The notes under the pieces were generated by a model. The model saw only the letters and a list, made by a program, of their open reading frames with translations. It was not told the DNA's origin and did not search any database. Positions 15-8,682 of a DNA stretch of 21,736 bases are shown piece by piece. The stretch is from a virus. The stretch covers positions 1 through 21,736 of IMG/VR virus record IMGVR_UViG_3300025327_000167; one strand, written 5' to 3'. Position 1 is the stretch's first letter. Every line of letters starts with the position of its first letter. A program made the position numbers and the translations under genes.

Positions 15-203
15 ATGAAGCCCGTCCTTCATCGCGTCCGTCTCGTGACCCCCTCTCGGACAGACCCGCACGAGCCGCATGAGTGGCCCGACTGGCTGGT
101 GGGCGTCGTCCTGATTGTCCTGCTGGCCGTCTCGGCTGGCACGATGGCCATCATCCTCGCCGTGACCTGGCGCGCGCTCGGGAGGCTCCTCCATGTCGGA
201 TAG
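15..203 (+). CDS. Small single-TM membrane protein, unknown function
   Basis: This encodes a 62-residue protein with a basic N-terminal half and one long hydrophobic stretch at about residues 27-52, bracketed by tryptophans (PDWLVG at the start, VTWRALGR at the end). That reads as one membrane helix. The ATG at 15 overlaps a TGA at 16-18 (ATGA), which would close an upstream gene read in frame 1 whose last codons spell PLHEA, so this gene is probably coupled to a neighbour left of the window. No ribosome-binding site is visible because the window begins too close. Its 3' end overlaps the next gene by 11 bp. A small one-TM protein in a phage late region could be a holin-like or accessory membrane peptide, but nothing proves this, and the gene lies away from the likely lysis cassette at 7802-8682. 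Confidence 0.5.
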   Translation: MKPVLHRVRLVTPSRTDPHEPHEWPDWLVGVVLIVLLAVSAGTMAIILAVTWRALGRLLHVG

Positions 204-1173
204 GATTCTGCTCGTCGAAGATACGCCGCTCCGCCGCGATTGGTTCTTCGATCAGTACGGCACGGAGCAGATCGACTGGACGGATGACCCGGAGGTGGCC
301 ATCGCCCACTTGCAGGCGCGGTCCTACGGGACGCTGCATCTCGACCACGACTTGGGGCGTCCAGGCTCGGGTCGCGATGTCACGCTCTGGCTGATCGCGC
401 ATCCCGAGGTCCAGCCGGCGCTCCGTATCGTGACCCATACGCACAACGGCGTGAGCGGCCCCAAGATCGAACGGGAGTGCCTCGTGGCCGGGCGTCCGTG
501 CGTCTGGAAGCCGTTTGGCAGTTGGGAGCCTGAGGATCTCCGCACCGAAGCCAAGCTCATGCCGGCGGGCCAGTGGGTGCCCGCGACAGCCAGCCAGATG
601 CTCCGGGCGTGGGGCGTGGCCGAGTTGCGCTCGTCGCGAGGAGATCAGGCGCTCCAGGCGGGCCTTGTCTCGGTCCATCTCCTCAGCATGCTCCGCGCGC
701 AGGAGTTCGACGCGATCTCGCCGGATGGCTGGGCCAGCGTGGAAGACGCCATCATCGCCATGCGGGGCCAGCTCGTGTCGAGCCTGCTGCATCTCGACCT
801 GCACTGGTACGAGCACGAGCTGGATCTGGCGGGGGTCACTGCGCTGCGCTTCTTCAACCTGCCCGAGTGGCAGGCCAAGTGGCCGAGTCAGAGGCTGGTG
901 GACTTGGCGGGCGAGCGCGATCCCGGTCGCACGGAGCCGGAGTGGCATGGCTTCGAGACGCCCATCGAGCGACCCATCGCCGTCGGCCGCACGCTGCATG
1001 GCCCGTTCTGCCTCGTCGAAGGTTACACGCGGGTCTGCACGTGGCTCCGGGACAGGAGGACGGGCTGGTTGTGTGAGGACAGCCTGCCCTTCCTCATCGG
1101 CATCTCACCGCGCATTGAACAGTGGGCGCATCCGCGGGGACACCGCTGGTGGCCCGTCAAGGAGGGAGACTGA
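193..1173 (+). CDS. cREC (receiver-like) domain protein with ParB/sulfiredoxin-like C-terminal region
   Basis: This is a 326-residue two-part protein. Residues 1-110 look like a receiver fold: ILLVEDTPLRRDWF at 5-18, LHLDHDLG at 48-55 and RIVTHTHNG at 78-86. The LDHDLG and H-x-x-N signature fits the cyclic-phosphate processing receiver (cREC) family rather than a canonical response regulator; members are predicted, not proven, to act on cyclic phosphate ends or nucleotides. The middle (130-220) is helical and unassigned. The C-terminal third has a conserved-looking FCLVEGYTRVCTW block at 272-284 followed by FLIGISPRIEQW at 300-311, reminiscent of the GxxxxEGxxR loop of ParB/Srx-like domains. 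The start is supported by GGAGG 7 nt upstream. The stop overlaps the next start (TGATG). The gene precedes the head genes, so it may be a late accessory enzyme. The cREC call is moderately sure and the ParB-like call is weak. Confidence 0.7.
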   Translation: MSDRILLVEDTPLRRDWFFDQYGTEQIDWTDDPEVAIAHLQARSYGTLHLDHDLGRPGSGRDVTLWLIAHPEVQPALRIVTHTHNGVSGPKIERECLVAGRPCVWKPFGSWEPEDLRTEAKLMPAGQWVPATASQMLRAWGVAELRSSRGDQALQAGLVSVHLLSMLRAQEFDAISPDGWASVEDAIIAMRGQLVSSLLHLDLHWYEHELDLAGVTALRFFNLPEWQAKWPSQRLVDLAGERDPGRTEPEWHGFETPIERPIAVGRTLHGPFCLVEGYTRVCTWLRDRRTGWLCEDSLPFLIGISPRIEQWAHPRGHRWWPVKEGD

Positions 1174-1367
1174 TGTCTCCGGCTCTGTCCAAGTCGCAGC
1201 AGCGCCTCATGATGGCCGCCGAGCACGGGGCCACCTTCCCCAAGGCGAAGGCGCTCCGCAAGTCCATGACGAAGCGGCAGCTGCACGACTACGCCGCCGG
1301 GTCTATGCACGGCAAGCCGGAGCGCGTCACGCCGAAGATGGCGGGCGTGCGGAAGGGAGACAAGTGA
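1173..1367 (+). CDS. DUF3008-like small basic phage protein
   Basis: This 64-residue lysine-rich protein opens with LSKSQQRLMMAAEHG and continues with KALRKSMTKRQLHDYA. The pattern (K/S)SK(A/S)QQRLM followed by a spaced SM(S/T)xxQLxxFA is common in small proteins labelled DUF3008 in phages and bacteria, whose function is unknown. The ATG at 1173 is chosen over a longer frame opening at 1122 because GGAGGG lies 6 nt upstream and because the start overlaps the previous stop as TGATG. The same overlap recurs at 1367, 1636 and 1851, so the genes here look translationally coupled. The small size and basic charge would suit a nucleic-acid-binding or virion-associated role, but this is a guess. Confidence 0.6.
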   Translation: MSPALSKSQQRLMMAAEHGATFPKAKALRKSMTKRQLHDYAAGSMHGKPERVTPKMAGVRKGDK

Positions 1368-1851: not shown

Positions 1852-2153
1852 TGCTTGAGAGTAAAGCGGCAATCTTCGACAACCCCCTGGCTGATCCGCC
1901 GGAGTTCAAGGTGACCGGGCGGGAAGCGCACACCCCGCGCATCTGTGAGGACGGCAAGGACGGGCACCTCGTCAAGGTGAAGCTCTGGCCGCCCAAGCAG
2001 CGGTACGCCGCGACGAAGCGCATGCCGAGCATCCCCGGCGCCTGCGAGAAGTGCGGCGCGCACGTGATCGTCTACGAGCAGATCCAGCCGGGGCTGACGG
2101 TCCTCCTGCCCGACGGCAAGCGGCTCCGCGGTGAGGGGCCGAAGGCGAGCTAG
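1851..2153 (+). CDS. Hypothetical protein with one CxxC motif
   Basis: This 100-residue soluble protein contains one CEKCG motif near residue 65, a further Cys near residue 30, and a C-terminal segment VLLPDGKRLRGEG that looks like a beta hairpin. The CxxC could be half of a metal site, but a second pair is not evident. Two ATGs lie in tandem at 1848 and 1851. The second is preferred because GGAGGG at 1840-1845 lies 5 nt from it and because it recreates the TGATG coupling seen at the preceding junctions; the first would sit only 2 nt from the Shine-Dalgarno sequence. I do not recognise the family. Its place directly before the portal gene suggests a head or packaging accessory role. Confidence 0.55.
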   Translation: MLESKAAIFDNPLADPPEFKVTGREAHTPRICEDGKDGHLVKVKLWPPKQRYAATKRMPSIPGACEKCGAHVIVYEQIQPGLTVLLPDGKRLRGEGPKAS

Positions 2154-3817
2154 TGCCCGCTGATCCCGTCGCCATCGTCAAGCGGTACGACACGCTCAAG
2201 ACCCGGCGCGAGAACTTCATTCCGCTCTGGGACGAGTGCGCGGAGTTCATCGTGCCGCATCGCGGGTCCATCCTGAACCGGCAGCAGAACGCCGTGACGC
2301 CGGGCCAGCGGCAGACCACGCGGCTCTTTGATGCCACGGGGGCCGAGTCCGCGCACAATCTCGCGGCCAACATGGGCGGCTCGCTGACGTCCCAAGCCGC
2401 GCCGTGGTTCCATCTCAAGACGCGCGATGACCGCGTGAACAAGATCAAGCGCGTCATGGACTGGCTGGAGGACACGGAGCAGCGGCTGTATCTCGGCTAC
2501 CGCCAGTCGAACTACTACGCCGAGGTCAACGAGGTCTACTTGGATCTCGCGGCCTTCGGGACCGGGTGCATGTTCGTGGGGGAGAAGGAGCCGGACGATC
2601 CCGAGGAACCCTTCGGTGGCTTCCTCTTCCGCGCGCATCCGGTCGGCGCCTATGTCATTGCCGAGGGGCCGGATGGCGTGGTCGAGACGATCATGCGTGA
2701 GGAGCAGATGACGGCGCGCGCCTGCGCCATCCTCTGGCCGGGCCACCTCGGCGAGGTGCTGCAAGGTCTGGCCGAGACGAAGCCCGACGAGCTGGTCACG
2801 ATCCTGCACGCGGTCTATCCGCGCACGGACGCCGACCCGAGCAAGTACGCCGCCACCAACATGGCGTGGGCGTCCTGCTATGTGGACCTGGCCCGCAAGC
2901 GGATCATCGACGAGGGCGGGTTCAAGGACTTTCGCTACGTCGTCCCCCGGTGGGAGAAAACCTCCGGCGAGGTCTATGGGCGCGGCCCGGGGATGCTCGC
3001 GCTCCCCGATATCCGTTCTCTCAACCGGGCCGATGAGATGGTGCTGGACGCTGGCGCCATGGCGATCCGGCCGCCCAAGACGATCCTGGCCGATGGGGTG
3101 TTGGGTGAGATCGACGAGACGCCGGGCGGGTACACCGTGATCGAAGTCCCGAACGCGATTCAGCCGATGAACCTCGGCGCCAAGTTCGACGTCGCGCAGA
3201 TTCTCAACGAGGACCGTCGGCAGCGGGTGCGCCGCATCTTTTTCTGGGAGCAGTTGCAGCTGCCGACCGGCAAGACCATGACGGCCACCGAGGTCGAGCG
3301 CCGCTGGGACACGATGCGCCGCATCCTCGGGCCCACGCTCGGGCGGCTGGAGTCCGAGTTCCTCAACAAGATCATCGGGCTGACCTTCGCCATGATGCTG
3401 CGCCGTGGCGCCTTTACCCAGCCGCCACCGGAACTGGCGGGGCAGGATCTCGACATCGAATACGAGGGGCCCCTGGCGCGGAGCCAGAAGTCCTCGCGGC
3501 TCTCGGCGCTGGAGCAGTCCATCCAACTCCTGACGCCCCTGCTCCCCGACCCGGAAGTCATGGCCAAGACGAAGGAGAACCTCGACCTCGACGCCATGAT
3601 CCGGGACGTGTTCCTGACCTCCGGCGCGCCGTCGGAATGGCTCACGGACACGGAGCAGCGCGATCAGGTCCGCGCCCAGCGGATGCAGAAGGAAGCCGTC
3701 ATGCAGGCGCTCGCCGCCGCCCAACAGGCTGCGGACGCCGCAGGCAAGGCGGCGCCCATGCTCAAGACGCTCAGTGAGAGCGCGGCGCAGCAGCAGCCGC
3801 AAGAGGCGGCGGCATGA
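2153..3817 (+). CDS. Portal protein (podovirus head-to-tail connector)
   Basis: The 554-residue product has the length and sequence style of the podovirus head-to-tail connecting protein, which forms the dodecameric ring at the packaging vertex. Recognisable stretches are RYDTLKTRRENFIPLWDECA near residue 11, the DATGAESAHNLAANMGGSLT block near 46-65, APWFHLKTRDD near 70-80, AAFGTGCMFVGEKEPDDPEE near 132-150, and the long C-terminal helix region with GKTMTATEVERRWDTMRRIL. The C-terminus is Ala/Gln-rich, as is usual in this family. Translation starts at GTG 2153, overlapping the upstream TAG as TAGTG; the Shine-Dalgarno sequence is weak (AAGGCGAG), so coupling probably matters. The small gene, scaffold and capsid genes follow directly, the standard podovirus order. 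Confidence is high because of length, motifs and neighbours. Confidence 0.92.
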   Translation: MPADPVAIVKRYDTLKTRRENFIPLWDECAEFIVPHRGSILNRQQNAVTPGQRQTTRLFDATGAESAHNLAANMGGSLTSQAAPWFHLKTRDDRVNKIKRVMDWLEDTEQRLYLGYRQSNYYAEVNEVYLDLAAFGTGCMFVGEKEPDDPEEPFGGFLFRAHPVGAYVIAEGPDGVVETIMREEQMTARACAILWPGHLGEVLQGLAETKPDELVTILHAVYPRTDADPSKYAATNMAWASCYVDLARKRIIDEGGFKDFRYVVPRWEKTSGEVYGRGPGMLALPDIRSLNRADEMVLDAGAMAIRPPKTILADGVLGEIDETPGGYTVIEVPNAIQPMNLGAKFDVAQILNEDRRQRVRRIFFWEQLQLPTGKTMTATEVERRWDTMRRILGPTLGRLESEFLNKIIGLTFAMMLRRGAFTQPPPELAGQDLDIEYEGPLARSQKSSRLSALEQSIQLLTPLLPDPEVMAKTKENLDLDAMIRDVFLTSGAPSEWLTDTEQRDQVRAQRMQKEAVMQALAAAQQAADAAGKAAPMLKTLSESAAQQQPQEAAA

Positions 3818-5912: not shown

Positions 5913-6365
5913 ATGACTTCCATTGATATCGCATGGGCGGCCGGGTTTATCGAGGGAGAGGGATGTTTCCAATCTCGCGGGGCAGCGGCACAAATTGTCG
6001 TGTCGCAAGTCCAACTCGAACCGCTCGTGCGATTGCAACGGATCTTTGGGGGTCATATCGCGCGCTACGAGCACCAGAACAAGAACCACAGCCCGTTTCA
6101 TCGCTGGCACGTTTCCAACATCCACGCCCGCAGCATCATGATGACGATCTTCGCGCTCATGTCGCCACGTCGCCGGCAGCAGATCGCAAAAGCGCTGGCG
6201 CCGTGGCGTTCGACCCAGGTGGCCGCAAAGCATCGCACGCAGTGTCCCCTCGGGCATCCCTATGACGAGGCCAATACCTACATGAATTCCAACGGCAGTC
6301 GCCGCTGTCGCATCTGCGCGAGCGCTAGCGCGCGACGTGCCTACCTTCACAGGAGGGATCGTTAG
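5913..6365 (+). CDS. LAGLIDADG homing endonuclease with C-terminal zinc finger
   Basis: The 150-residue product starts with a clear single LAGLIDADG-type motif, AWAAGFIEGEGCF at residues 7-19, in which the acidic residue before GCF is the expected catalytic position. The remainder of the first 95 residues fits a one-motif LAGLIDADG domain, a form that works as a homodimer. Residues 111-135 add a zinc-ribbon or treble-clef-like site, CPLGH then RRCRIC (C111, H115, C132, C135), a finger usually seen attached to HNH-type phage endonucleases. It probably cuts DNA and promotes spread of its own gene. Base and codon use is less GC-biased than in the flanks (for example agaaaatcaatgacttcc), supporting later insertion. 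No clear Shine-Dalgarno is present, so translation may depend on the capsid stop 8 nt upstream. No intron or intein features are seen around it. Confidence 0.88.
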   Translation: MTSIDIAWAAGFIEGEGCFQSRGAAAQIVVSQVQLEPLVRLQRIFGGHIARYEHQNKNHSPFHRWHVSNIHARSIMMTIFALMSPRRRQQIAKALAPWRSTQVAAKHRTQCPLGHPYDEANTYMNSNGSRRCRICASASARRAYLHRRDR

Positions 6366-8176: not shown

Positions 8177-8416
8177 ATGGGGCAGGCGATCTTCCTGGTG
8201 GTGGTCTTAGCCCTCACGGGCTGTTCTCTTGCTCCTTCTGACAAGGTGCTGGAAGCCCTCGGCAAGAGTGAGCGGTCGTGGTGCATCTCGATCTCGTCGA
8301 TCTACGGGGTCGTGCGCATGGGGGGCTCCGGCATCCAGGGAGGCACGATGACGTGTACACAGGAAGGACTCGCCGTGAAGGACGACGCCGGGCGAGTCGA
8401 ACTCCCGCCGCGATGA
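8177..8416 (+). CDS. Phage lipoprotein, possible outer spanin
   Basis: This 79-residue precursor has a short hydrophobic signal (AIFLVVVLAL) followed by the lipobox LTGC at residues 13-16, so Cys16 should be lipidated, giving a 64-residue mature lipoprotein starting CSLAPSD. The mature part has SWCISISSIYGVVRMGG and MTCTQEGLAVK, with two further cysteines. The ATG at 8177 is preferred over one at 8159 because AAGGAG lies 7 nt upstream and the signal peptide then has normal length. It follows the one-TM gene and overlaps the endolysin-like gene by ATGA. An outer-membrane spanin role is inferred from context. The mature part is not proline-rich as in lambda Rz1, so another envelope function is possible. 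Confidence 0.6.
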   Translation: MGQAIFLVVVLALTGCSLAPSDKVLEALGKSERSWCISISSIYGVVRMGGSGIQGGTMTCTQEGLAVKDDAGRVELPPR

Positions 8417-8682
8417 CCCGGGCGGAGTTCGCGGAAGCCGCCGCGACGTTTTGCGCTCTCACGGGGGCCAGTGTGACCTCCTGGACGCGGACGCTACGCC
8501 ACAACACGGCCGTGGGTGGCGTCACGCACTCCGCGCATCTGTTTGGCCTCGCGGTGGACGTGGTGTATGACACGCCACAAGCCTTGCCGCTCACGATGGA
8601 GCGCGCGCGACGACTGGGGCTCAAGCTTATTCGGGAAGGGGACCACGATCATGTGCAGCCCGCCACCTGGACGGCGGGCTAG
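8413..8682 (+). CDS. Minimal M15-type peptidase, probable endolysin
   Basis: This 89-residue protein contains the zinc-site signature of the peptidase M15 family: SAHLFGLAVD at residues 40-49 (S-x-H-x-x-G-x-A-x-D, with H42 and D49) and GDHDHVQP at 76-83 (H78 and H80). The preceding TAVGGVTHSAH and the following RRLGLKLIREGDHDH segments match the M15_3-like arrangement. Such enzymes cut peptide crosslinks in peptidoglycan and serve as phage endolysins. The length is at the short end for the family, and no signal peptide or wall-binding domain is present, so release would need a holin. The ATG overlaps the lipoprotein stop (ATGA). A virion-associated hydrolase is an alternative role. Confidence 0.8.
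   Translation: MTRAEFAEAAATFCALTGASVTSWTRTLRHNTAVGGVTHSAHLFGLAVDVVYDTPQALPLTMERARRLGLKLIREGDHDHVQPATWTAG

Follow-up and report, generated by a model that had tools for sequence, protein, structure and literature searches.

This locus raises the question of what a phage gene encodes when a receiver-like domain is fused to a long orphan tail, and the fusion is placed among the genes for the virion. The window, meaning the whole 21,736-nucleotide stretch analysed (positions 1 to 21,736 of IMG/VR record IMGVR_UViG_3300025327_000167), carries this gene at exactly the coordinates originally predicted (Table 1). The gene is genuine, and purifying selection acts along its entire length: relative to a homologue with 87% protein identity (in contigs L004/L005), the dN/dS values for receiver, middle region and tail were 0.10, 0.11 and 0.15, respectively. 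An SD-like GGGAGG stands ahead of its ATG, and both its GC and GC3 are near the values of the structural genes. Full-length relatives were found in only four IMG/VR contigs besides the window, all from sample series 3300025325-3300025327, giving a total of five contigs. The motifs quoted in the original prediction were all recovered from the translation, at residues 7-12 (LVEDTP), 50-55 (LDHDLG), 81-86 (THTHNG), 272-280 (FCLVEGYTR) and 303-311 (GISPRIEQW).

Table 1. Coordinates in the window of the cREC-fusion gene, its parts and its neighbours
Feature	Position	Strand	Basis
Small protein, 62 aa, one hydrophobic stretch (by eye), no Pfam match; overlaps the start of the cREC-fusion gene	15..203	+	
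cREC-fusion gene, 326 aa: cREC receiver, helical middle and orphan C-terminal domain	193..1173	+	ORF; whole-length selection
cREC-type receiver domain, residues 1-119, predicted complete (βα)5 fold	193..549	+	PF20274, AF2, Foldseek
LDHDLG; D51 aligns with the classical phosphoacceptor Asp	340..357	+	alignments
HTHN, residues 82-85, matching the cREC signature H-[ST]-x-N; T83 lines up with the receiver Ser/Thr	436..447	+	alignment
KPF, residues 106-108, after β5; classical receiver Lys	508..516	+	alignment, AF2
Middle region, residues 113-200, predicted helical with low confidence, no relatives found	529..792	+	AF2; dN/dS 0.11
C-terminal region, residues 201-326, conserved, orphan, ParB/Srx motif resemblance	793..1170	+	dN/dS 0.15; no family match
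LVEGYTR, residues 274-280, ParB-like motif	1012..1032	+	sequence
GISPRIEQW, residues 303-311	1099..1125	+	sequence
Small protein, 64 aa, weakly DUF3008-like; ATG overlaps the stop of the cREC-fusion gene (TGATG)	1173..1367	+	
Head-tail connector (portal)	2153..3817	+	PF12236, 403.8 bits

Profile searches and structural modelling both identify the N-terminus as a receiver of the cREC lineage, whose predicted fold is that of a complete receiver, bearing out the earlier description of a cREC receiver-like domain. The cREC profile PF20274 scored 41.6 bits against the full protein and 44 bits against the isolated domain, passing its cut-off of 27, whereas Response_reg (PF00072) scored 15.5 bits, under its cut-off of 30.2, and a classical receiver profile gave 1.5 bits. 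Across this gene's family PF20274 ranged from 41.6 to 49.9 bits; other phage cRECs scored 55-101 bits, apart from one outlier at 24.5. In a calibration on 299 Bacillota genomes, clear cREC genes, which were short frames, scored 83-105 bits, and other receiver-like matches did not exceed 30.7. Hence the domain is assigned to the cRECs, though as an atypical member, because its score sits between the background and typical cRECs.

The receiver fold anticipated for the N-terminus was also predicted by AlphaFold. With 30 sequences, residues 1-110 were modelled at a pLDDT of about 90-98, as five strands (residues 5-8, 27-30, 47-50, 78-81 and 103-105) alternating with helices; with three sequences, the pLDDT was 33.5. 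Foldseek searches returned a phage protein annotated as cREC as the top viral match in BFVD, and response regulators and related receivers as the matches in the PDB. PorX stood at the head of the PDB list, and was set aside as its alignment spanned the low-confidence middle region, with an rmsd of 10-14. A separate 111-aa phage cREC ORF (L035, RIDWFF...) resembles the window's receiver, scoring 57.3 bits with PF20274 and 19 bits with Response_reg, and has a β5-like end that lacks the Lys.

The active site combines the features of two receiver classes. Alignment with 22 classical receivers matched E9/D10 to the acidic pair, D51 to the phosphoacceptor, T83 to the Ser/Thr and K106 to the Lys, and the cREC signature is present in full, comprising E9 and D10, R14, LDHDLG and the H-[ST]-x-N motif, with H82, N85 and HDLG as its characteristic positions. 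The active-site residues are all conserved across both lineages of the fusion gene, and the residue after N85 is Gly in the window and Pro in the relative. It is the KPF motif, overlooked in the original prediction, that completes a response-regulator-type active site. As β5 and KPF are kept, the full receiver quintet therefore coexists with the cREC signature LDHDLG...HTxN. This combination appears to be rare: none of about 105 distinct phage cRECs gathered by a DNA pattern had Lys at the K106 position, the lone near case being a KPL close to that position, at the very end of one protein (L128). The pattern forced DHDLG and HxxNP, so agreement in these columns is not independent evidence, whereas the acidic pair and R14 were free of this constraint. 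Scanning genome contigs with a combined cREC and KPF DNA pattern yielded one chance match, antisense to a long unrelated ORF, which indicates rarity rather than absence, because the pattern covers just the GAC codon at D51.

The remainder of the protein is an orphan: residues 120-326 have no family match in Pfam, PHROGs, NCBIfam or PADLOC, and a PDB search with the last 128 residues gave no convincing match. The tail had been described as ParB-like, a claim that profile-profile comparison did not bear out: hhalign against the ParB_N alignment placed RPIAV...LVEGYTR in the expected register with a score of 13.9, compared with up to 18.0 for shuffled tails, and 50 of 150 shuffles were equally good against a broader ParB set. 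The AlphaFold confidence for the tail was about 50-60 or lower, and this model has a strand, not a helix, after LVEGYTR. Hence a ParB/Srx identity for the tail is not supported beyond motif resemblance, although the relatives are so few that it could yet hold.

Protein searches of phages and plasmids for relatives of the tail gave only chance-level matches, and most of those opened were antisense to annotated genes or had no coherent same-family reading. Two degenerate tail patterns retrieved nothing real from viral contigs, the first being a weak negative because it used a GAG codon that is absent from the window. Searching as many as about 400 Bacillota genomes for the tail also returned nothing, which says little because nothing points to a Bacillota host.

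The genomic setting places the gene between TerL and the portal, as the predicted late-cluster position implied. In longer contigs TerL lies upstream (L003 3742-5202, by tblastn to annotated phage TerL), and the order of TerL on the 5' side and portal on the 3' side is the same in both lineages. The earlier description of the gene as next to the portal was therefore right as to the gene cluster, but the two are separated by about 1 kb, and the terminase lies beyond the opposite end of the gene. Matches to major capsid, tail and internal virion proteins fit a podovirus-like phage. As ORFs overlap the gene at both its start and its stop, the cassette at 15-1367 looks translationally coupled. In the fragmentary loci of sister phages (L223 and L225-L227), whose portals are 41% and 31% identical to that of the window, there was no cREC match, nor any match to the full 193-1173 gene. 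Hence the gene looks accessory to this phage.

Other genes in the surrounding clusters were also noted. An ORF directly 3' of the major capsid gene (window 5913-6365, + strand) is LAGLIDADG-like, with a match to PF00961 (E 0.002) below cut-off, and by sequence is possibly a homing endonuclease. A short endolysin-like M15 peptidase ORF (PF08291) lies inside the structural cluster (window 8377-8682, + strand). Upstream of TerL in L003 are a methyltransferase-like gene (505-1245; PF13489, just under cut-off) and, following it, a gene for a hydrophobic, probably multi-TM protein (about 1242-2399).

An earlier suggestion, that the protein acts on RNA ends or counters tRNA cleavage, is unsupported. 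The tRNA and Rfam scans found no tRNA gene and no Rfam match, and there were no RNA ligase, sirtuin, KptA, Nudix or 2H genes among the scanned ORFs, a set outside which the early genes of the phage lie.

We favour, with a probability of roughly 0.4, the reading that this accessory gene of the TerL-portal interval encodes a two- or three-part effector that either handles phosphoesters or is phospho-switched. D51, with E9/D10, T83 and K106, would engage a phosphoryl or cyclic-phosphate group, and this engagement would alter or position the C-terminal domain. The output would come from that domain, possibly through action on nucleic acid, should the ParB-like motif prove genuine. The receiver could be a phosphoester hydrolase, as hypothesised for cRECs, or a phospho-switch, as its sequence fits either. 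Were it synthesised late, along with the head genes, the protein would either work at a late stage of infection or travel inside the virion to act on the next host; only the gene's position points to such late expression or packaging.

The complete classical quintet including KPF, missing from the sampled phage cRECs, would also suit a phage response regulator, in which a host histidine kinase or small phosphodonor phosphorylates the receiver, and the tail, by binding DNA or protein, serves as the output that controls functions of phage or host. The full β5-α5 of the model, and the response regulators among the PDB matches, are in keeping with this explanation. It is nevertheless unlikely, as the sequence is cREC-like and falls short with both Response_reg and the classical receiver profile, the scanned ORFs include no kinase gene, and published cRECs never occur with histidine kinases (PMC7824862). 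Somewhat less probable again is the fusion of a cREC phosphoesterase to a ParB/Srx-like nuclease or NTPase, which would make it a small protein related to the injected late-gene DdrB-ParB proteins. The tail segment RPIAVGRTLHGPFCLVEGYTR is in the right register with ParB QPIvV...yelVaGeRR, R280 is invariant in relatives of the protein, and phage DdrB-like ParB domains adjoin virion genes (PMC5512222), yet this is opposed by the scores of the shuffled tails, the lack of any Pfam ParB family match and the strand past the motif in the low-confidence model.

The gene's position between TerL and the portal, and its coupling to the cluster's small ORFs, might instead reflect a head or packaging accessory protein in which a catalytically idle receiver is a mere binding module. 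This is improbable, given that both lineages have kept every active-site residue in a gene under selection, and that it is missing from the sister-phage loci covered. The effector of phosphoester-handling or phospho-switched type remains our preferred reading. A still bolder version of it, and a long shot, is that the protein is an intermediate between cREC phosphoesterases and phospho-relay receivers, a viral cREC in which the full receiver switch has been kept and gates a new nucleic-acid-acting output that is injected, or expressed beside the virion genes. Cyclic-phosphate processing by cRECs is a prediction, described as uncharacterised in PMC7824862 and PMC9503650, neither of which gives any cREC biochemistry. 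A cREC with the classical Lys and a full receiver fold is therefore a natural test case for whether these domains are enzymes or phospho-switches, because D51, T83 and K106 can each be mutated singly.

Three known systems frame this protein. With the ParB/Srx-like DNases, including the DdrB-like ParB of phage P1 (PMC5512222), it shares LVEGYTR in the ParB register and a late-gene setting, but its tail has neither significant profile similarity nor a supporting fold model. With classical receivers (PF00072) it shares the predicted (βα)5 fold and the whole set of five switch residues, K106 of KPF among them, whereas it scores under the Pfam cut-off, has the cREC-specific HDLG and HTHN, and is accompanied by neither a kinase gene among the scanned ORFs nor a recognised output domain. 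Some phage cRECs (L099, L071, L059 and L067) have added N- or C-terminal parts, in some cases with zinc-ribbon-like Cys motifs, which by eye are unlike this tail. The likeness to the cRECs (PF20274; PMC7824862, PMC9503650) extends to LDHDLG, H-[ST]-x-N, the acidic pair, the conserved Arg and the phage setting, as well as to profile and fold matches. The protein differs from them in scoring below typical members, and in lacking their typical RNA-repair and NAD partners among the scanned ORFs; it also differs in keeping β5 and KPF, and in carrying a long orphan tail.
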